Of a stretch of DNA of 64,000 nt, positions 2,842-18,193 are shown in pieces. Origin of the DNA: Chitinophagaceae bacterium DXS (lineage in GTDB: Bacteria > Bacteroidota > Bacteroidia > Chitinophagales > Chitinophagaceae); the NCBI GenBank assembly GCA_030345135.1, contig CP128386.1, forward strand, positions 5,130,170 through 5,194,169, read 5' to 3'. Under the pieces are notes generated by a model. The model was not told the DNA's origin. It saw nothing but the letters and a program-made list of their open reading frames with translations, and ran no database searches. A program made the position numbers and the translations under genes. The number at the start of each line of letters is the position of its first letter. Position 1 is the stretch's first letter.

Positions 2842-2965
2842 CAAAGCGCGGATAAAACTCACGCAATAAAACAATATTGAGTTGTCTGTACTGATTCTAT
2901 TATTACCAGGAGTATTTATAAACCTGCTCCGCACAGACAGAACGTTATCACATAAATTGTTTATC

Positions 2966-5077
2966 ATGTCTTCGCACTACAATGATATTCCGGACGAAGC
3001 TGCTCTTCAACAATTGGCCAATCTTTATTTCAAAGCTGTGCCGGCTGATGATCCCGGGCAGTTGTTCACGGAAGGAAACCCGATACAATCAGTAGAGAGC
3101 AATTCTTCCAACAGCGAACAATATGCTTATAGCTCGAGGCCACCACAATCCGTAGCGGGCAGCGGTGCGTCTCCATCTGCCATCCAGCACGAACGATACT
3201 TTAATATTAAAGAGCCACCCACCAGCCATCCTGATCCTCATTTTGGTTCGGGACATGTGCCTCATTCGGTGGCCGGAAGCGGCATTTCACCTTCTGCAGG
3301 CGGAAGGGAAAATCTGTTTAATCCCGGTGAAGCTTCCCGCAAACTACCGGAAACCAGTTACACCGGAAAAGTACCTGGCTCTGTAGCAGGAAGCGGCATT
3401 TCACCTTCGGCTATTCAGCATAGCAAAACGTTCAACCTTGATGATCCACCGGTAAGTCACCCGGATCCTCATTTTGAAAACGGGGCCAATCCGAATCCGC
3501 CAACAGGCGTCGGTGCCTCTCCCACACATGCACAACAAGTCACTCAGCAACCGCCGCTGTATGCTTTCGGGCAACAACAAGGCACTGAACCATCATACAA
3601 TCCTGCAAACAATCCATTCTCCGGTAATCATTTTTCCAGCTATCTGCCTTATGGTCAACAACCGTTTACGGCAGAGCTGCATCAGATGTTTAGTGCCGTT
3701 CAGTCATATGTGCAATCGGCGCAAATACCCGGCAGCGCTTACGACTTTTCGCATCCGGCCAGCTATTACTTTTTGCAGTCAAAAACATATGATCATCCGG
3801 AACATGCAAAGTTCAAGAAACAACACTATAACTCATTCCAACCAGGCTTTGATCTTAACCTGATCAAGCAGGATTTTCCCATATTACAAGAGCGGATCAA
3901 CGGGAAGCAAATCATCTGGCTGGATAACGCGGCTACAACTCAAAAGCCAAGACAGGTTATTGACCGCGTAAGTTATTTTTACCAACACGAGAACAGCAAT
4001 ATTCACCGAGCGGCGCACGCGCTGGCTGCAAGAGCAACTGACGCTTATGAAGCAGCCCGGCAAAAGGTTCAGCGCTTTCTGAATGCCAAATCTGCCAACG
4101 AGATCATTTTTGTGCGTGGATCAACTGAAGCGATCAATCTTGTAGCACAAAGCTGGGGCGACGAAAATCTGGAAGCCGGTGATGAGATTATTATCAGCCA
4201 TCTTGAGCATCATGCAAATATTGTCCCGTGGCAAATCCTCGCCGGTAAAAAGAATTTAAGGCTTAGTGTTATCCCGGTTGATGACCATGGCCAGGTGATT
4301 CTTGATGAGTACGCAAAATTGCTCAGCCCAAAAACAAAACTGGTCGCCTTCACACAAGTGTCCAATGCGTTAGGAACAATCACACCGGCAAAACAAATGA
4401 TAGAAATGGCGCATGCGGCTGGCGCAAAAGTATTGCTGGATGGAGCACAGGCCGTATCACACATGCGGGTTGACGTCAGTTATCTTGATTGCGACTGGTA
4501 CGTTTTTTCAGGACATAAAGTTTTTGGTCCCACAGGCATCGGCGTATTATATGGCAAAGAAGATCTGCTTAATGATACACAACCATGGCAAGGCGGCGGA
4601 AACATGATCCAGGATGTAACTTTTGAACACACGAAATATCAAAAGGCGCCAACACGATTTGAAGCCGGAACCGGCAACATTGCCGATGCTGTCGGATTAG
4701 GCGCAGCCATTGACTATGTAATGCGCCTCGGCATGGATAATATTGGTCACTACGAGCATTTTCTGTTGCAATACGCAATAAGCCTGCTGAAAGATGTTCC
4801 GGGATTAAGGATGATAGGCACTGCCGCAGAAAAAGCCGGTGTTCTCTCCTTTGTAGTGGAGGGATTTAGAACCGAAGACGTCGGCAAATACCTGAATGAA
4901 CATTATGCCATTGCCGTACGCAGCGGTCACCATTGCGCACAACCCATATTGCGCCGGTTTGGAGTGGAGACAACTGTTCGTCCGTCACTTGCGCTGTATA
5001 ACACTTGTAGCGATATAGATACGCTTGTTCTGGCACTCCACAAGTTGAAAGGCAGCCGTAAGGGAAATATCTCATAA
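2966..5077 (+). CDS. Family 2A encapsulin cargo: cysteine desulfurase with a long disordered N-terminal loading domain
   Basis: A 703-residue protein in two parts. Residues 1 to about 294 are low in complexity, rich in Pro, Ser, Gly and His, and carry the motif SVAGSG(A/I)SPSA at about residues 62, 101 and 139, with a degenerate fourth copy near 180. This is the cargo-loading region typical of encapsulated desulfurases. From about residue 295 there is a SufS-type (group II) PLP desulfurase: the PLP lysine is K518 in SGHKVFGPTG, and the catalytic cysteine is C657 in RSGHHCAQP. It converts cysteine to alanine and a persulfide sulfur. The ATG at 2966 is preferred over the TTG at 2882, since the earlier 28 residues look like translated leader. 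A terminator follows directly. The sulfur is probably sequestered inside the shell. Confidence 0.94.
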   Translation: MSSHYNDIPDEAALQQLANLYFKAVPADDPGQLFTEGNPIQSVESNSSNSEQYAYSSRPPQSVAGSGASPSAIQHERYFNIKEPPTSHPDPHFGSGHVPHSVAGSGISPSAGGRENLFNPGEASRKLPETSYTGKVPGSVAGSGISPSAIQHSKTFNLDDPPVSHPDPHFENGANPNPPTGVGASPTHAQQVTQQPPLYAFGQQQGTEPSYNPANNPFSGNHFSSYLPYGQQPFTAELHQMFSAVQSYVQSAQIPGSAYDFSHPASYYFLQSKTYDHPEHAKFKKQHYNSFQPGFDLNLIKQDFPILQERINGKQIIWLDNAATTQKPRQVIDRVSYFYQHENSNIHRAAHALAARATDAYEAARQKVQRFLNAKSANEIIFVRGSTEAINLVAQSWGDENLEAGDEIIISHLEHHANIVPWQILAGKKNLRLSVIPVDDHGQVILDEYAKLLSPKTKLVAFTQVSNALGTITPAKQMIEMAHAAGAKVLLDGAQAVSHMRVDVSYLDCDWYVFSGHKVFGPTGIGVLYGKEDLLNDTQPWQGGGNMIQDVTFEHTKYQKAPTRFEAGTGNIADAVGLGAAIDYVMRLGMDNIGHYEHFLLQYAISLLKDVPGLRMIGTAAEKAGVLSFVVEGFRTEDVGKYLNEHYAIAVRSGHHCAQPILRRFGVETTVRPSLALYNTCSDIDTLVLALHKLKGSRKGNIS

Positions 5078-5616: not shown

Positions 5617-6000
5617 ATGAACATTACCAGCACCGAAAAACTAACCTGGTTTTATGCCTGCAGAACAGAAGATGTTCCGGTTGACGGAGGCGTTTGTGTA
5701 AAATATAAAAACGAACAAATCGCCTTGTTCCATTTTACCCGCCGCAATGAGTGGTATGCAACACAAAATCTTTGTCCGCACAGAATGCAAATGGCACTCA
5801 GCCGCGGTATGATTGGCAGCTCAAACAATGAACCTAAAGTAGCCTGTCCCTTTCACAAGAAAACATTTTCTCTTGTGGACGGTCATTGTATGAACGATGA
5901 TGCCTGCGACACCATAAAGACTTACCCCGTTAGGATTGACGGACATGATGTATATATAGGAGTGGATGAAGATGATGAAGCTTCGATTGTTTTCGCATAG
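5617..6000 (+). CDS. nirD: Rieske [2Fe-2S] protein, nitrite reductase small subunit (NirD) family
   Basis: A 127-residue cytosolic protein with both halves of the Rieske motif: CPHR (C-x-H) near residue 53 and CPFHKKTF (C-x2-H) near residue 77, as in NirD. The C-terminus has the family's short beta-rich end. In other bacteria NirD is the small subunit of NADH-dependent siroheme nitrite reductase NirBD. Here no siroheme-binding NirB is found; the FAD and BFD parts of NirB are fused to the nitrate reductase two genes downstream. The protein may therefore carry electrons to the Mo enzyme or to the rubredoxin protein. That role is inferred. It is the first gene of the nitrate cluster and is followed by a hairpin. 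Confidence 0.85.
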   Translation: MNITSTEKLTWFYACRTEDVPVDGGVCVKYKNEQIALFHFTRRNEWYATQNLCPHRMQMALSRGMIGSSNNEPKVACPFHKKTFSLVDGHCMNDDACDTIKTYPVRIDGHDVYIGVDEDDEASIVFA

Positions 6001-6448: not shown

Positions 6449-7762
6449 ATGCAACCGTTAACTAACAATAAACCTCTGGACAGGTTAAAAATATTCAGCA
6501 TCCGATCGCTTCAGATGCGCACATTTCATATCACATGGATGATGTTCTTTGTCTGTTTTTTCGGATGGTTTGGCCTGGCTCCTTTAATGCCTACCATTCG
6601 CGAGGACTTACATCTCACCAAATCGCAGGTAGGTAATATCATCATCGCATCTGTATCGGTTACCATTATAGCCAGGATCGTTATCGGAAAGCTATGCGAT
6701 GTATGGGGACCAAGAAAAACAGCAGTAAGATTATTGCTTATAGGATCACTGCCCGTATTTCTTGTTGGGTTAGCCAATGACTATACAACCTTCTTATTGT
6801 TTCGTCTTGCTATAGGCATTATCGGCGCATCTTTTGTCGTCACACAGTTTCACACATCTATGATGTTTGCCGCCAATATAAAAGGTACAGCCAATGCTGT
6901 TGCCGGCGGCTGGGGCAACCTTGGCGGTGGCGTAACCAATATGGTAATGCCGTTGATCTTTGCTGCTATTGTAGGAATGGGTTATACAAAACATGAAGCA
7001 TGGCGCTATGCAATGATTTTGCCTGGCGTAATGATGCTTGTCATAGCATGGTTTTATCACAAATACACAAAAGATACGCCTGCGGGAAATTTCGATGAGA
7101 TCGGTCGCAACGCCAACAAACAAAAAACGGACTGGAGCGTATTGAAAGACTGGCGCATTTGGGCACTAACACTTGCCTATGCCATGTGCTTCGGAATGGA
7201 GATCACTTTTGATAATGTGGCTTCATTGCATTTTGTAGACACGTTTGGATTATCGCAAAGCACCGCCGGCTTCTGGGCGGGCATTTTCGGTTTCATGAAT
7301 TTATTTGCAAGAGCACTTGGGGGAATTGTTTCTGATAAAGTTGGAAGCCGTTACGGCATGAGAGGCAAAGGATGGCTGCTTGCCATAGTTTTATTGCTTG
7401 AAGGTTGCGGACTGTTGTTATTTGCAAATGCCGGAACACTTACCCTTGCCATTATTTCCATGCTTGGCTTTGCACTGTTTCTTAAAATGGCCAATGGCGC
7501 CACTTATGGCATTGTGCCTTTCATTAACGAAAAGAATATTGGTATTGTAAGCGGCATCGTTGGTGCAGGTGGTAACGCAGGTGGCATGCTCTTCGGCTTT
7601 CTCTTCAAATCTAAAACCATTAGTTATGTAGATGCATTCAGTTATATCGGTTTTATAGTGATCGGTATTTCATTTATTGTACTCATTACACGTTTCCGTA
7701 AGGATACTGCAATAGTAAAAGATATGACCAGCGAAGAAAGTGTGCTGGCACTTGCTGAATAA
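6449..7762 (+). CDS. narK: Major facilitator nitrate/nitrite transporter, NarK/NasA family
   Basis: A 437-residue MFS protein with about twelve hydrophobic segments. The nitrate signature GGWGNLGGGVTNMVMP is present near residue 152, and a second glycine-rich stretch (GIVGAGGNAGGMLFG) lies near residue 369 in the second half, as in NarK/NrtP proteins. The N-terminal 25 residues before the first membrane segment are polar. It should import nitrate, or exchange it for nitrite, across the inner membrane for the nitrate reductase encoded 10 bp downstream. The small gap and shared strand indicate co-transcription. Symbols narK, nasA and nrtP are used for this family; the choice here is by family only. 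Confidence 0.9.
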   Translation: MQPLTNNKPLDRLKIFSIRSLQMRTFHITWMMFFVCFFGWFGLAPLMPTIREDLHLTKSQVGNIIIASVSVTIIARIVIGKLCDVWGPRKTAVRLLLIGSLPVFLVGLANDYTTFLLFRLAIGIIGASFVVTQFHTSMMFAANIKGTANAVAGGWGNLGGGVTNMVMPLIFAAIVGMGYTKHEAWRYAMILPGVMMLVIAWFYHKYTKDTPAGNFDEIGRNANKQKTDWSVLKDWRIWALTLAYAMCFGMEITFDNVASLHFVDTFGLSQSTAGFWAGIFGFMNLFARALGGIVSDKVGSRYGMRGKGWLLAIVLLLEGCGLLLFANAGTLTLAIISMLGFALFLKMANGATYGIVPFINEKNIGIVSGIVGAGGNAGGMLFGFLFKSKTISYVDAFSYIGFIVIGISFIVLITRFRKDTAIVKDMTSEESVLALAE

Positions 7763-7772
7763 ACAACAACGC

Positions 7773-10700
7773 ATGAAGGAACAAACACACGGCGAAACAG
7801 GCTCATACAAAACCACATGCTGTTACTGCGGCGTTGGTTGCGGCATTGTTGTACATAAAGACAGGATGGGTAAGGTTCTTGTTGAAGGCGACAAGGACCA
7901 TCCCGTTAATAAGGGTATGCTGTGTTCAAAAGGAATGAATCTTCACTATACAGTGATGAACACTTCCGACAGGTTGCTCTATCCTGAAATGCGTTACAAC
8001 AAGCAAATGCAGCGCCAGCGCGTTACATGGGATGAAGCGCTGGCACGCACGGCTGCTGTGTTTAAAACTTTCATCAACAAATACGGACCGGACTCGGTTG
8101 CTTTCTATGTTTCTGGTCAGTGCCTTACAGAAGAATATTATGTTATTAACAAGCTGATCAAGGGCTTTATTGGAAGTAACAATATAGATACGAACTCAAG
8201 ATTGTGCATGAGCAGCGCGGTTGCAGCCTACAAAATGTCGCTGGGCGAAGACAGCGTACCAGCATGCTATGATGATATTGAGGAAACAGATTGCATTTTT
8301 GTAGCAGGTGCAAATCCCGCCTGGTGCCATCCTATTTTATGGCGCAGGGTTGAAGCCGCAAAAGCTGCCAATCCCAACATGAAAGTGATTGTAAGCGATC
8401 CGCGTGTTACGCAAACCTGCTCGATGGCGGATGTGCATCTGCAACTTAATCCCGGAACCGATATTGTTTTACATCATGCCATCGGCCGGATCTTGATTGA
8501 GCAGGGTGATATAGATATTAAATTTATTCAGCAACATACGGAAGGGTTTGAAGATTACTCCCATGCCGTGATGCAGCGAAGTATTGCTGAAGCAGCACAG
8601 ATCTGTGGCATTGAAGAATATCGCATATATGAAGCTGCAGCATTGATTGGCAATGCAAAAAAATTCATGACCTTCTGGACAATGGGGTTGAATCAATCAG
8701 CAGCGGGTGTTAATAAGAATCTTAGCCTGATCAATCTTCACCTGATCACCGGTACAATCGGTCGCCCAGGCTGCGGGCCTTTTTCGCTGACCGGGCAGCC
8801 AAATGCGATGGGTGGACGTGAAGTTGGCGGACTGGCAAATCTGTTACCTGCGCACCGGGACCTAAGCAATCCGGTTCATCGTGAGGAAGTGGCTACATTC
8901 TGGAACGGCAAAGAGCTTTCTCCCAGGCCCGGCCTTACCGCCACTGAAATGTTTGAAGCTTTAAACGACGGTAAGCTAAAAGCGATCTGGATCATCTGCA
9001 CCAATCCACTGATCAGCATGCCTGATGTAAGAATGGCTGAGAAAGGATTAAAGAACGCAAAGTTTGTTGTAGTACAGGATATATCCAACAGGCTTGAAAC
9101 ATTGCCCTATGCGGATGTTGTGTTACCTGCAGCCGCATGGATCGAAAAAGAAGGCACCATGACGAATGCAGAAAGACGCATCACCTGGTTGCAGAAAGTT
9201 ACAGATGCGCCGGGCGAAGCATTGCCTGATGCGGAAATTATTTGCCGCTTTGCAAAGCACATGGGCTTTAATGGTTTCGACTATAACAGTTGTGAGGCTA
9301 TTTTTAAAGAACATGCGGCGCTAACTGCAGGAACAAACATAGATATTAACGGTGTAGACTATACGCTGCTTCATCAAAGAAGAAGTGTGCAGTGGCCTGT
9401 GAACACAAGCAACAACTACAATGACACAAAGCGATTGTTTGCCGATCATATTTTCCATACTAAATCAAAGCGCGCAAAAATACACGGCGTACCTGATTGC
9501 AATCCATCGGTACAACCAACAGCAAATCACCCACTGATCCTGACAACGGGCCGCATTCGGGATCAATGGCACACGATGAGTAAGACAGGAAAAGTGAATA
9601 AACTGAAACAGCACATTGCAGCATCATTTCTTGAAATTCATCCTGATGATGCGGCTGAGCGCGGCATTGCCGATGATGACCTGGTTGAGATTACGAATAC
9701 CAACGGAAACGTAAGAGTAAAGGCAAAGATCAGCACGCAAATAAAAAAAGGCGTGGTGTTTTTACCCATGCACTGGGGAAAGATTTTAAATGATGACAGT
9801 AATCGCGCCAATAACCTCACTTTTAATCTTATTGATCCCATTTCGAAGCAACCAGACTTTAAGTTTTCTATCGTACAGGTAGCTAAATACAAAAGACCAA
9901 AGCAAAAGATCGTGATCATAGGAGCCGGCGCGGGAGCCCATGGTTTTGTGCGGAGCTACCGCAAATTAAATATGGATGATGAGATCATTGTTTTCAGCAA
10001 AGAAGATCTCCCTTTTTACAACCGGGTAATGCTTCCGGATTATGTAAGCGGAACGCAACAGTGGAAGCAACTGGTAAAAATGAATGCCTATGAGGAAAAA
10101 GAACATGAAATAACACTTCATAAAGGTGTAAGCATTCAACATATTGACCGGCAAGCCAGGACCGTTACCGACAGCAACGGACAGACACACACCTACGATA
10201 CGCTTATTCTTGCAACCGGGAGCCGCGCGGCAACTTTGAAACATACCCCGCCGATGAAGGGCATATTCACCATGCGCAGTAAGGACGATGCAGATAATTT
10301 TAAAAGACATGTACAGGCTTCTGATGAACCGATTGTTATTGTCGGTGGTGGCTTACTCGGTATCGAAATGGCGGCATCCTTAAAGGAAATCGGGAAAGAT
10401 GTGGTCATCATTCAACGTTCGTCCCGGCTAATGGACAGGCAACTCGATGAACTTGGAGCAAGACTTTTGTATGAAGAATTGCGGGACAGAAATATTGAAG
10501 TACTGTACAACGATGAAATTGACAGATTTCTTGGCAGTAGCAAACTTACGGGTCTACAATTGAAGAGCGGTAGAAAGATTAGCTGCCAGGCGGTGATCAT
10601 GTCTATAGGAACTGTACCCAATATTGAGCTTGCGCAGGCATGCGGACTGGAACATAAAAGGGGTATTGTTGTAAATGAATACCTGCAGACTAATGATAGC

Positions 10701-11318
10701 CACATTTACGCGATTGGGGAAATAGCGGAATTCAAGGGAACATTATACGGTATTACCGCTGCAGCAGAACAACAGGCGGCAATAGTTGCACAACATCTTT
10801 CCGGCGATATTTCAAACTATTACCAGGGCTCTCTTTTCATGAATATACTTAAGTTGCATGGCGCAGACATCTGCTCTCTCGGCACGGTTGAAACGCCAGC
10901 AGATCCCACATATGAAGAAGTTGTATTTATCGACAAGGCAAAACGCTATTACAAAAAATGCGTTATTCACGAGGATAGATTGATCGGTGCAATATTGATT
11001 GGCGACCGTTCAGAGTTCCAGGAATTCAGGGACCTGATCCAGAACAAAATAGAGTTATCCGAAAAACGATTGCAACTCCTTCGCTCCGGTAAAAAGGCTG
11101 CACCAGTTTTGGGTAAGCTGGTTTGCTCCTGCGGTAATGTGGGTGAAGGAAATATTTGCGCCAAAATAAAAGAAGGTTTTACCGAATTGAAAAGTCTTTG
11201 CGAAGCTTCCGGCGCAGGTTTGGGCTGCGGCAGCTGTCGCCCTGAAGTAAATGCCATACTCAACCGCGAAGTTGCCGCAATAACGCAACCGGTAGCCATT
11301 ACTGTTAACGCCGTTTAA
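7773..11318 (+). CDS. nasA: Assimilatory nitrate reductase fused to a NirB-type FAD and BFD [2Fe-2S] electron-input module
   Basis: An 1181-residue fusion. Residues 16-51 hold the [4Fe-4S] motif (C16, C19, C23, C51; CCYCGVGCG). The bis-MGD molybdopterin oxidoreductase domain follows to about 480, and a dinucleotide-binding domain lies near 585-700. A pyridine nucleotide-disulfide/NirB-like FAD domain starts near 712, with GAGAG at 717 for FAD and VGGGLLG near 857 for NAD(P)H. A BFD-like [2Fe-2S] domain sits at about 1116-1160 (C1118, C1120, C1152, C1155). There is no Tat signal, so it is cytosolic. NAD(P)H electrons would pass through FAD and the clusters to Mo to reduce nitrate to nitrite. 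The ATG at 7773 fits the family better than the GTG at 7740, which overlaps narK. The Mo cofactor genes lie downstream. Confidence 0.9.
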   Translation: MKEQTHGETGSYKTTCCYCGVGCGIVVHKDRMGKVLVEGDKDHPVNKGMLCSKGMNLHYTVMNTSDRLLYPEMRYNKQMQRQRVTWDEALARTAAVFKTFINKYGPDSVAFYVSGQCLTEEYYVINKLIKGFIGSNNIDTNSRLCMSSAVAAYKMSLGEDSVPACYDDIEETDCIFVAGANPAWCHPILWRRVEAAKAANPNMKVIVSDPRVTQTCSMADVHLQLNPGTDIVLHHAIGRILIEQGDIDIKFIQQHTEGFEDYSHAVMQRSIAEAAQICGIEEYRIYEAAALIGNAKKFMTFWTMGLNQSAAGVNKNLSLINLHLITGTIGRPGCGPFSLTGQPNAMGGREVGGLANLLPAHRDLSNPVHREEVATFWNGKELSPRPGLTATEMFEALNDGKLKAIWIICTNPLISMPDVRMAEKGLKNAKFVVVQDISNRLETLPYADVVLPAAAWIEKEGTMTNAERRITWLQKVTDAPGEALPDAEIICRFAKHMGFNGFDYNSCEAIFKEHAALTAGTNIDINGVDYTLLHQRRSVQWPVNTSNNYNDTKRLFADHIFHTKSKRAKIHGVPDCNPSVQPTANHPLILTTGRIRDQWHTMSKTGKVNKLKQHIAASFLEIHPDDAAERGIADDDLVEITNTNGNVRVKAKISTQIKKGVVFLPMHWGKILNDDSNRANNLTFNLIDPISKQPDFKFSIVQVAKYKRPKQKIVIIGAGAGAHGFVRSYRKLNMDDEIIVFSKEDLPFYNRVMLPDYVSGTQQWKQLVKMNAYEEKEHEITLHKGVSIQHIDRQARTVTDSNGQTHTYDTLILATGSRAATLKHTPPMKGIFTMRSKDDADNFKRHVQASDEPIVIVGGGLLGIEMAASLKEIGKDVVIIQRSSRLMDRQLDELGARLLYEELRDRNIEVLYNDEIDRFLGSSKLTGLQLKSGRKISCQAVIMSIGTVPNIELAQACGLEHKRGIVVNEYLQTNDSHIYAIGEIAEFKGTLYGITAAAEQQAAIVAQHLSGDISNYYQGSLFMNILKLHGADICSLGTVETPADPTYEEVVFIDKAKRYYKKCVIHEDRLIGAILIGDRSEFQEFRDLIQNKIELSEKRLQLLRSGKKAAPVLGKLVCSCGNVGEGNICAKIKEGFTELKSLCEASGAGLGCGSCRPEVNAILNREVAAITQPVAITVNAV

Positions 11319-11327
11319 AAAATACGT

Positions 11328-12791
11328 ATGAGCCGGACACATTCGATAACGATCAATTTTAAAGGGGGAATTATCTCACCGGGGCAATTGCTGGAAATAC
11401 TTTCTATTGCGGATCAATGCCTGATCAAAGACGTAAGTTTCGGTGCGCGCCAGCAATTATTGATTGATGTGCCGGAAAAATATTTATCACAGTTTACCAC
11501 AAACTGCAAGCGACAACAAATTGCCTGGCAGGAAACGAAGAAGGCACATGCAAATATTACCAGCTCATATGTAGCTGCAGGCATTTTTACAACAGACAGC
11601 TGGTTAACAGAAGGCACCTACAAAGATGTGTTGAATATGTTTGAGCAACCTTCCAGGATTAAAATAAACGTCTGCGACAGCAAGCAAACCTTTACGCCTT
11701 TTTTTACAGGTCATTTAAACTGGATTACATCCCCCCAATTACATTACTGGCATTTGTATCTCCGGATGCCGGGCAGTAATGAATTGTACAGGTGGCCCGA
11801 AGAAGTTTATACAAACTACATAGGTTCGCTCAATGCAAAAATTGAGCGCCTGCTAATGAGTGGCTTTAAAACGACGAAGGGTGAAGACGTTTACAAACAA
11901 ATAAAAACGGATGATCCTGACGCCGGCAATACGAACGCCGTTCGTATGGTTGTTCCGGCATTTCATTTACCCTACTATGAGGGATTTAACAGGCATGGCA
12001 ACAGTTACTGGCTTGGCATTTACCGCCGCGACCAAAGCTTCCCTGTTGCCTTTCTACAGGAACTTTGCTCTTTGTGCCTGGAGACAAAGATCGGGCAGTT
12101 GTATTCCACTGCATGGAAATCACTGATCATAAAAGATATCGATCGTGCGCATCGTCAACGGTATGATTATATCCTGAATAAGTACCGTATTAACGTGCGG
12201 CACGCTGCCAATGAACTCAACTGGCAAGTGGAAGACAATAATGAAGAAGCGCTAAGGATCAAGCGACTCATCATCCGTCATTTTGATAAAGAAGATGTGC
12301 GCACCTATGGGTTGAGCTTTGGCATACAATTGAAACAAAAAGCCGGGATATTCGGGTCTGTGATCATACGTAAATGTCCACAGACCGGAAGCGGCCGGTT
12401 AAGGTCACAAGAGCGCTATGACATTTTACATACCAGCGATTTTAATCCAAACACACAAGAGCTTATCCATTTTAGAGAAGGCGTTTCCAAAGAGCATTTG
12501 GGTACATACCTCGTATCCTTAAGCAAATTCTTTTACGAGCAAATGGAAATACAACATGCTCCTGCCATATTGAGCACCCCCGAACCAGCTAAAGGAATGG
12601 AAGAAAAAACATGGCACCAGTGCCCGCAATGTTTTACAGCATATGATGAAGCGCTCGGTGATATTGAACAGGATATTTCGCCCAATACGCCATTCGAATC
12701 ATTGCCGTCTTCATACTGTTGTTCAATGTGCGGGGAGCCAGTTAAGAATTTTGTAAGTAGAAGTGAATTGAATGTCATTACGGAGATATAG
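11328..12791 (+). CDS. Nitrite/sulfite-reductase-like protein without siroheme ligands, with a C-terminal rubredoxin domain
   Basis: A 487-residue protein. The N-terminus (ISPGQLLEILSIADQ followed by ARQQLLI) resembles the ferredoxin-like half-domain of nitrite and sulfite reductases, and a second similar half appears around residues 300-400. The cysteine pairs that bind siroheme-[4Fe-4S] (CxxxxxC and CxxxC) are absent. The C-terminus is a rubredoxin-like iron site: C432-PQ-C435 and C465-SM-C468. It starts 9 bp after the nitrate reductase, so the two are certainly co-transcribed. It is more likely an electron carrier or partner subunit of the nitrate reductase than a nitrite reductase. Family relation is moderately sure; its role is inferred. 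Confidence 0.75.
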   Translation: MSRTHSITINFKGGIISPGQLLEILSIADQCLIKDVSFGARQQLLIDVPEKYLSQFTTNCKRQQIAWQETKKAHANITSSYVAAGIFTTDSWLTEGTYKDVLNMFEQPSRIKINVCDSKQTFTPFFTGHLNWITSPQLHYWHLYLRMPGSNELYRWPEEVYTNYIGSLNAKIERLLMSGFKTTKGEDVYKQIKTDDPDAGNTNAVRMVVPAFHLPYYEGFNRHGNSYWLGIYRRDQSFPVAFLQELCSLCLETKIGQLYSTAWKSLIIKDIDRAHRQRYDYILNKYRINVRHAANELNWQVEDNNEEALRIKRLIIRHFDKEDVRTYGLSFGIQLKQKAGIFGSVIIRKCPQTGSGRLRSQERYDILHTSDFNPNTQELIHFREGVSKEHLGTYLVSLSKFFYEQMEIQHAPAILSTPEPAKGMEEKTWHQCPQCFTAYDEALGDIEQDISPNTPFESLPSSYCCSMCGEPVKNFVSRSELNVITEI

Positions 12792-15252: not shown

Positions 15253-16230
15253 TTATCCGCCAATCAGCGACATACTTTCATACTGTTCAACTTCTTTCAT
15301 TGCAGCAGCTTCAAAGCCGTTAACCGGTTTTAATGTTACCGCTTGTTGGATTGCTGCAATCAGCTCCTGCTCTCCTGTTCCGGAACGGATGAGATCTTTT
15401 ACATTTAGGACATCATTACCGTACAGGCACAACTTCATACCACCGGTAGGCGTTACCCTTAAACGGTTGCAGGTTCCGCAAAGCGTCCGGGAGTAAGCGG
15501 GTATAACAGCGATAGACCCTGCAAAATCGTCTGCCTTATAATTCAGCGCTATATTATGTTTGGGATCAGCCAGCTTTGTGAGATTATAACGCTGGCTTAT
15601 ATGATGCAAAATCGCGTCGTAATTCCATTTGATTCCGGAATAGTCCTTCCCCTGTCCGTTAAATGGCATTTCCTCGATAAAACGGACACTGATTTGATGG
15701 TTGCGGGTTAGCTCTACAAAATCCAGGATCTCATCCACATTCATATCATTTATCACCACCATGTTGAGCTTAAGATTAAAGGGCTTCTGCATTAACATTT
15801 GCAGCGATGCGAAAACAGCGTCAAACTCATCACGTCTTGTCAGCCTGAAAAAACGATCCCTTCTTAATGTATCAAGACTTAAATTAACATTCGTGATATT
15901 CGACCGTAGAAGCTGGTCGATGTACTTGCCTGTTAATACGCCATTTGTTGTAATAGAAAGATTTTCGAGCGTCTTTATGGAAGACAATTGTTCCAAAAGC
16001 GAGGAAAGATCTTTTCTTACAAAAGGCTCGCCACCGGTAATTCTTACCTTTGTAATGCCGGTGCGGGTTAAGGCATTGACCAGGAAAATGATTTCTTCGT
16101 AAGACAATACTTCATCACGCGAAAGAAACTGCTGATGTTCAGGCATGCAATAACAGCAGCGCAAATTACAGCGATCTGTTACGGATAATCTCAGGTAATT
16201 TATTTCACGTCCGAACTTGTCAATCAGCAT
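15253..16230 (-). CDS. moaA: GTP 3',8-cyclase MoaA (radical SAM)
   Basis: A 325-residue radical SAM enzyme that starts molybdopterin synthesis: with MoaC it turns GTP into cyclic pyranopterin monophosphate. The SAM cluster motif CNLRCCYC lies near residue 21, the GGEP motif near residue 65, and a C-terminal cluster is indicated by LCGTCNRLRVTPTGGMKLCL (near residue 249). The usual MoaA C-terminal GG dipeptide is present (SLIGG). Length is normal. It is downstream of a small conserved gene with a 3-bp gap, so they form a minus-strand operon. Confidence 0.96.
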   Translation of the reverse strand: MLIDKFGREINYLRLSVTDRCNLRCCYCMPEHQQFLSRDEVLSYEEIIFLVNALTRTGITKVRITGGEPFVRKDLSSLLEQLSSIKTLENLSITTNGVLTGKYIDQLLRSNITNVNLSLDTLRRDRFFRLTRRDEFDAVFASLQMLMQKPFNLKLNMVVINDMNVDEILDFVELTRNHQISVRFIEEMPFNGQGKDYSGIKWNYDAILHHISQRYNLTKLADPKHNIALNYKADDFAGSIAVIPAYSRTLCGTCNRLRVTPTGGMKLCLYGNDVLNVKDLIRSGTGEQELIAAIQQAVTLKPVNGFEAAAMKEVEQYESMSLIGG

Positions 16231-17095: not shown

Positions 17096-18193
17096 ATGCA
17101 ACTGAATAAAGAGAGATATAACCGGCAGCTTCTGCTGGCTGGTTTTGGAGAGGAAGCGCAGCTTAAGCTTTTACAATCCCGCGTGCTGGTAGTTGGCGCA
17201 GGTGGTCTCGGGGTTCCTGTTTTACAATATTTGTCCGGCATGGGCGTTGGCAAAATTGGAATTATAGATCACGATGTTGTTGCCGAAAGCAATCTCCACC
17301 GCCAGGTTTTATATACAACAAATGATATAGGCGAGCCTAAAGCAAACAAGGCTGCAGAACGGTTAAATGCACTCAATCCCGAAGTTGAGTATATTGTATT
17401 TAACGAATTGCTTACCACCGGCAATGCGCTTTCCGTTATCGGCCTTTTTGATGTGGTTGTTGATTGTACCGATAATTTTCCAACACGTTACCTGATCAAT
17501 GATGCGTGTGTGATATTAAACAAACCTTTTGTTTATGGCGCCATTCATCAGTATGAAGGACAGGTAAGCGTATTTAACCATAATGGATCGGCAACTTACC
17601 GTTGCCTGTTTCCCACGGCACCTGAAGTTGGCGTTGTGCAGGACTGCAATACCAATGGTGTGTTAGGGATCCTTCCCGGAATTATAGGTTGTTACCAGGC
17701 CAACGAAACGATTAAATTATTAACCGGCATCGGAGAGTTACTAGCCAACAAAATGTTGATCATCGATACACTATTCAATCAACAGAGAACTATCCGCTTC
17801 CAGCCAAAATCAGATCTTCCGCAAATAACAAGGCTTGATAGCGATGATTATAAATCGCTGTGCGGATCGGCGAGACTTCGCAATATGTCCGTTTCAGAAC
17901 TTGCGTCACGAATAAAAAACAACGAGGCAATCCAGCTTGTAGATGTCAGAGAAGATGATGAGCTGGCCATTTGCCAGATTGCTGACAGTATACACATTCC
18001 TTTAGGTGAAATAGTAGCGAAAGCAAATAAAATTGACGGAAGCCAGCCTGTCATTATGATTTGCCATCATGGTATCAGAAGCAGGATTGCAGGCGAAGAA
18101 TTATTAAAGAAAGGATTTACCAATATTTTTAATTTAACCGGCGGTATTCATGCATGGGCGCTAGAAATAGACAAGACGATGCAGGTGTACTAA
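17096..18193 (+). CDS. moeB: MoeB/ThiF-type adenylyltransferase with C-terminal rhodanese domain
   Basis: A 365-residue protein. The N-terminal E1-like domain has the ATP loop VVGAGGLGVPV (near residue 33) and the downstream D-x-D-x-x-E-x-S-N-x-x-R-Q pattern (DHDVVAESNLHRQ), and resembles MoeB and ThiF. The C-terminal rhodanese domain (about 265-365) has its active-site cysteine C323 in ICHHGIRS. It would adenylate the C-terminal glycine of MoaD and help load sulfur, ready for MPT synthase. The moaD gene, ending in GG, lies two genes on. A ThiS or CysO role is possible, but the Mo cofactor neighbours favour MoaD. Confidence 0.85.
   Translation: MQLNKERYNRQLLLAGFGEEAQLKLLQSRVLVVGAGGLGVPVLQYLSGMGVGKIGIIDHDVVAESNLHRQVLYTTNDIGEPKANKAAERLNALNPEVEYIVFNELLTTGNALSVIGLFDVVVDCTDNFPTRYLINDACVILNKPFVYGAIHQYEGQVSVFNHNGSATYRCLFPTAPEVGVVQDCNTNGVLGILPGIIGCYQANETIKLLTGIGELLANKMLIIDTLFNQQRTIRFQPKSDLPQITRLDSDDYKSLCGSARLRNMSVSELASRIKNNEAIQLVDVREDDELAICQIADSIHIPLGEIVAKANKIDGSQPVIMICHHGIRSRIAGEELLKKGFTNIFNLTGGIHAWALEIDKTMQVY

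Follow-up and report, generated by a model that had tools for sequence, protein, structure and literature searches.

Sulfite and nitrite reductases of the CysI/NirA kind (PF03460/PF01077) have a body of 550 residues in which ferredoxin-like half-domains and NIR_SIR repeats alternate twice, and they carry siroheme and a [4Fe-4S] cluster on four cysteines (C434, C440, C479 and C483 in E. coli SiR). In the E. coli enzyme R83, R153, K215 and K217 bind the substrate. The reductase NirB is built from one siroheme half and one flavin half. Rubredoxins attached to redox proteins of nitrogen-oxide metabolism are found in the flavorubredoxin NorV and the class III hybrid cluster protein, where the bodies are of the diiron/flavin and hybrid-cluster types. 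(The NasB protein of B. subtilis, considered as another rubredoxin-bearing precedent, was discarded, as the B. subtilis control genome has no PF00301 match.) The protein encoded at 11328..12791 on the + strand of the 64,000-nucleotide stretch of Chitinophagaceae bacterium DXS analysed here (the window) shares elements with each of these systems. It has the ferredoxin-like/NIR_SIR order of CysI/NirA over its whole body and the equivalents of R117 and K217, but unlike those enzymes it is without all four siroheme-[4Fe-4S] cysteines, has R83 and R153 replaced, is shortened to a body of ~410 residues and adds a rubredoxin. It differs from NirB in that it contains two SiR halves but lacks a flavin part; the two proteins have a common operon in relatives, and the FAD/BFD half of NirB is the part that is fused to the adjacent NasA. 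Like NorV and the hybrid cluster protein it joins a rubredoxin to a redox-type body, which here has an SiR-like fold. Two proteins that RefSeq calls 'rubredoxin', WP_245126150.1 of Hymenobacter volaticus and WP_232563077.1 of Spirosoma oryzicola, are 42% and 40% identical over 98%, belong to the same family and occupy the same operon place after a 'nitrate reductase', with the tail alone annotated and no function given. A search of open papers turned up no description of this family; it is a conserved Bacteroidota family, uncharacterised as far as found, whose RefSeq name is merely "rubredoxin".

The open reading frame starts with ATG and encodes 487 residues. The first ferredoxin-like half-domain (residues 2-70, 11331..11537) is followed by a shortened first NIR_SIR-like repeat (residues ~71-200, 11538..11927), a second ferredoxin-like half-domain (residues ~207-285, 11946..12182) containing C247-x2-C250 and W263-K264, and a second NIR_SIR-like repeat without cluster cysteines (residues ~286-412, 12183..12563; motif NVRHAANELNWQVED). 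The last three were delimited by profile alignment, together with conservation for the two in the second half of the body. Within the reductase body the first half-domain alone reaches a Pfam cut-off (PF03460, residues 5-49; 28.5 bits, where 24 is required), and the same domain is found in 40 of 41 aligned relatives, with a best E of 2.1e-11. The rubredoxin (residues 430-475, 12615..12752) gives 42.9 bits with PF00301, for which the cut-off is 23, and has the C-x2-C...C-x2-C pattern with its cysteines at C432, C435, C465 and C468, exactly where the original prediction had placed them. These cysteines are present in 65 of the 73 family members and gapped in the remaining eight. The domain is thus intact by motif and is predicted to bind iron and to be redox active. 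A PF00301 search finds no second rubredoxin in the genome, and profile searches of the protein detect neither a flavin nor a BFD domain.

The original prediction also recognised ferredoxin-like half-domains in a nitrite/sulfite-reductase-like body, and this holds over the full length. In an hhalign profile-profile comparison of 73 family members (the window protein and 72 homologues) with 27 sulfite/nitrite reductases, residues 2-411 align with CysI 77-550 over 391 columns (probability 96.9%, E 1.9e-10, score 87), superseding a smaller initial comparison that had given 22-66%. In a control set-up where the real profile scores 80.2, 30 column-shuffled profiles reach no more than 21.4 and the reversed profile reaches 20.3; the real score is about four times these values, implying that the two-repeat architecture is complete and that the match is not due to chance. 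The profile match to the reductase half of NirB is weaker (51%), and the protein is therefore grouped with the two-repeat CysI/NirA kind. For the comparison of a predicted structure with SiR/NiR, suggested with the original prediction, an AF2 model was made from two sequences; it has a mean pLDDT of 46 and is usable only at residues ~1-70 and 430-480; its confident part matches solved rubredoxins in Foldseek with TMt 0.8-0.9. Its best non-rubredoxin match is M. tuberculosis NirA (1zj8; E 9.7e-4, prob 0.98, 478 columns), at a TM of only 0.24, so that the match reflects the order of elements and not the quality of the model. Profiles and motifs together show a full-length sulfite/nitrite-reductase fold that is without its siroheme-[4Fe-4S] ligands and ends in an intact rubredoxin motif.

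The absence of the four cysteines, claimed originally for this one protein, extends to the whole family. No C-x5-C or C-x3-C occurs in the body of the window protein, and the joint siroheme-[4Fe-4S] cysteine motif is found in 0 of the 73 members. An alignment to E. coli SiR by way of the CysI encoded in this genome places C434 and C483 opposite gaps, C440 at L297 and C479 at K336; the motif count is the safer evidence, since alignment confidence is low in the last quarter of the body. The defining feature of a siroheme nitrite reductase was looked for and is absent, so that by sequence the protein is not a nitrite reductase of known type, as originally proposed, and judged from its motifs the siroheme centre is gone from the family. 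The substrate residues R83, R153, K215 and K217 correspond to T8, A75, R110 and K112 in the window protein, K217 alone being kept as such; across the family, lysine or arginine is present at the R83 position in 53 of 73 members and at the K215 position in 46, K217 is kept in 68 and R153 in none. Other positions are strictly conserved: R41, which aligns with SiR R117, and the neighbouring Q42 are invariant (73/73), as are N131, K264, E296 and K312, and H292 is present in 72 members. Two near-invariant features are new, namely C247-x2-C250 (67 and 71 of 73) and N289..H292..E296-L297-N298. The C-x2-C pair, which lies in the second ferredoxin-like half and has no counterpart in the aligned sulfite reductases, may be a metal or thiol site. 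Selection thus seems to act on a polar pocket in the family.

The gene lies in a nitrate-reducing operon, as had been noted originally. Its ATG follows by 9 bases the stop codon of a 1192-codon gene (7740..11318, + strand) encoding NasA fused to a NirB-type NAD(P)H/FAD and BFD [2Fe-2S] module. The NirB part of this fusion covers positions 1-470 of the TIGR02374 profile, its flavin part falls in the NirB/NorW/rubredoxin-reductase family (81.9 bits with PF18267), and its [4Fe-4S], FAD and BFD motifs are intact; by motifs it carries a complete FAD - [2Fe-2S] - [4Fe-4S] - Mo chain. Upstream of the fusion, on the same strand, are a NarK-family nitrate/nitrite transporter (6449..7762; TIGR00886, 318.9 bits) and NirD, the Rieske-type small subunit of NADH nitrite reductase (5617..6000; TIGR02378, 101.6 bits, cut-off 74.65). 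Downstream of the gene are molybdenum cofactor genes, MoaA on the - strand (15253..16230; TIGR02666, 325.9 bits) and, on the + strand, a MoeB-type adenylyltransferase with a rhodanese-like end (17096..18193; profile match). In consensus scans promoter counts are at shuffle level and terminator counts slightly above it; for the + strand the scan lists no terminator beyond the gene. A Family 2A encapsulin shell (1858-2841; NF041162, 533 bits) and its cysteine desulfurase cargo (2882-5077; NF041166, 871 bits) lie directly upstream of NirD in the window; relatives' nitrate operons show no such pair.

The original prediction left two choices, that nitrite is reduced elsewhere or that this protein does something new. 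The first is borne out by the gene content, and a new activity survives as one of the rival readings weighed below. The 7.29-Mb single-contig genome has three PF01077 matches in two genes, CysI and NirB. The suggested search for siroheme genes and a true nitrite reductase finds a full NirB at 440 kb of the contig (440246-442732; PRK14989, 1119 bits) with an intact C-x5-C...C-x3-C and an adjoining uroporphyrinogen-III methyltransferase, and CysI at 1.717 Mb clustered with CysJ, CysH, a second methyltransferase and CysG-N. With NirD in the operon and an intact NirB beside a siroheme-synthesis gene, nitrite is predicted to be reduced by ordinary NirBD and not by the 11328-12791 protein. Relatives have one contiguous cluster of NirB, NirD, an alginate-export-like protein of the outer membrane, NarK, the fusion and the homologue; in DXS the cluster is split in two, and NirB lies 4.7 Mb from NirD, NarK and the fusion. 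The distant NirB is accompanied by the methyltransferase, by such an outer-membrane protein and by what was identified by eye as a Crp-type regulator.

Comparative analysis goes beyond the original prediction: the protein is no one-off oddity, and the conserved family to which it belongs is linked to the NasA::NirB-flavin fusion together with NirB. Among 197 Chitinophagaceae genomes the homologue is found in 45 and the fusion in 36, all 36 within the 45. Across 395 Bacteroidota genomes the full fusion occurs in 33, with the homologue directly downstream in 28, and NirB occurs in the same 28 genomes that have the rubredoxin form; these co-occurrence counts ignore shared descent, which confounds them. 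The five fusion genomes without a homologue are also without NirB and instead have a CysI/NirA-type reductase of ~600 residues near the fusion, while the eight genomes of this set with solely unfused NasA have no homologue. At 30 of 30 loci the homologue comes immediately after the fusion and in the same orientation, with a median gap of 52 bases. The rubredoxin form is thus the fixed downstream partner of the fusion in those Bacteroidota that also have NirB. Median identity to the window's copy is 41% for the homologue, compared with 68% for the fusion. Full-length matches in a search of 72,556 plasmids are limited to Bacteroidota, a search of genome contigs gave a single relative, from a Segetibacter, and none of the 14 pattern matches in viral contigs is a relative. 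Three genomes of one genus have, besides the operon copy, another one with a rubredoxin that lies away from the nitrate operon (L042 8154-9650, L043 9388-10884 and L111 8206-9702).

In a maximum-likelihood tree of 72 rows of the family, all eight rubredoxin-less members form one clade nested among the rubredoxin-bearing operon members (support 100/99), indicating that the tail was lost once. These copies (L046, L050-L052, L054-L056 and L072) are ~420-450 residues long, come from Chitinophagaceae and are never beside the fusion. Their neighbours share no common theme and include a PEP-utilising enzyme, an antiporter, a luciferase-like protein, AraC, a decarboxylase, a POT transporter, a dioxygenase, a HEPN-tailed sulfite reductase and urocanase. 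As the tail-less copies lie away from the fusion among unrelated genes, the tail appears to track the operon and the body appears able to serve without it. One 98%-complete genome bearing such a copy has no siroheme-type reductase (PF01077) at all, and the persistence of these paralogues on their own suggests an independent role for the body. The HEPN-tailed neighbour at L055 (10358-12544) is a siroheme reductase of 729 residues that ends in a HEPN domain; in many Bacteroidota genomes the main PF01077 reductase is a frame of similar length (~700-780 residues).

Because the family occurs where the fusion and NirB co-occur, the protein is probably a helper or relay and not a nitrite reductase. 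The reading we favour, though tentatively and at somewhat less than an even chance, is that it may be an accessory, non-siroheme electron-relay or adaptor subunit on the flavin module of the fusion. In NirB the FAD/BFD module passes electrons to a sulfite-reductase-fold half of its own polypeptide. The fused nitrate reductase lacks this half and has NasA attached in its place; the 11328-12791 protein may supply such a body in trans. Its body would dock on the NirB-type flavin module, and the rubredoxin would take single electrons from FAD/BFD and hand them on, with either NasA or the nearby NirBD as acceptor; which way electrons run in this scheme is a guess. Nitrate and nitrite reduction could thereby be coupled and a build-up of nitrite avoided. 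Several observations support a relay or adaptor, namely the fixed place 3' of the fusion and the co-occurrence with fusion and NirB, the family to which the fusion's flavin part belongs together with the genome's sole rubredoxin, the single rubredoxin-less clade that is never beside the fusion, and evolution much faster than that of the partner, as expected for a non-catalytic subunit. The strongest points against it are the complete redox chain of the fusion and the five fusion genomes without a homologue, from which it follows that an extra carrier is not strictly needed, and the solo tail-less copies that persist.

A second, less likely possibility is that the old siroheme pocket now serves a different ligand or cofactor, to which the rubredoxin would feed electrons; candidates are an oxyanion of nitrogen or sulfur, nitric oxide, hydroxylamine or a cluster-free tetrapyrrole. 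The body survives without rubredoxin in a genome without a siroheme reductase, several of the strictly conserved polar residues (R41, Q42, K264, N131, E296, K312 and H292) lie on pocket strands of the SiR fold, basic residues remain at the SiR anion sites R83 and K217 in most members, and C247-x2-C250 is nearly invariant. However, in the window protein itself R83 and R153 have become T8 and A75, with R153 kept nowhere in the family, no recognised cofactor motif is present, and the family diverges fast relative to NasA and NirB. An extension of this possibility is more speculative still: the sulfite-reductase fold may have given rise to a new Bacteroidota class that binds or transforms nitrogen-oxide species between nitrate and nitrite reduction, having lost siroheme and cluster, rebuilt its pocket around these seven residues and the C-x2-C pair and added a rubredoxin, while the solo paralogues would have taken the new activity elsewhere in metabolism.

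Rubredoxin-type helpers exist for other metalloenzymes, and the protein might likewise be a rubredoxin-carrying chaperone that inserts or guards a cofactor of NirBD or of the NasA fusion. Its exact tracking of NirB in the 395-genome set, its fixed operon place and a fold related to that of its supposed client are in keeping with such a maturation or protection factor. This role is nevertheless doubtful, since in other phyla NirB and NasA are not known to need a protein of this type to mature, and a rubredoxin-less copy is found in a genome that has no PF01077 protein. It is highly improbable that the protein is a nitrite reductase after all, with siroheme or haem held by other ligands, because the whole SiR architecture, the R117 and K217 equivalents and the nitrate operon setting are outweighed by the absence of all four cluster cysteines, the alteration of three of the four substrate residues in the window protein and the normal NirBD in every rubredoxin-form genome of the 395-genome set.

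The single recorded loss of the electron-carrier tail makes the roles of body and tail separately testable. Annotation by Pfam half-domains could mistake this family for a nitrite reductase. The analysis gives a name to a missing part of Bacteroidota nitrate assimilation, the RefSeq 'rubredoxin' gene that accompanies NirB throughout the sampled set, and the family provides a clear example from nature of how the fold of a siroheme enzyme can lose its cofactor and be retained for another job.
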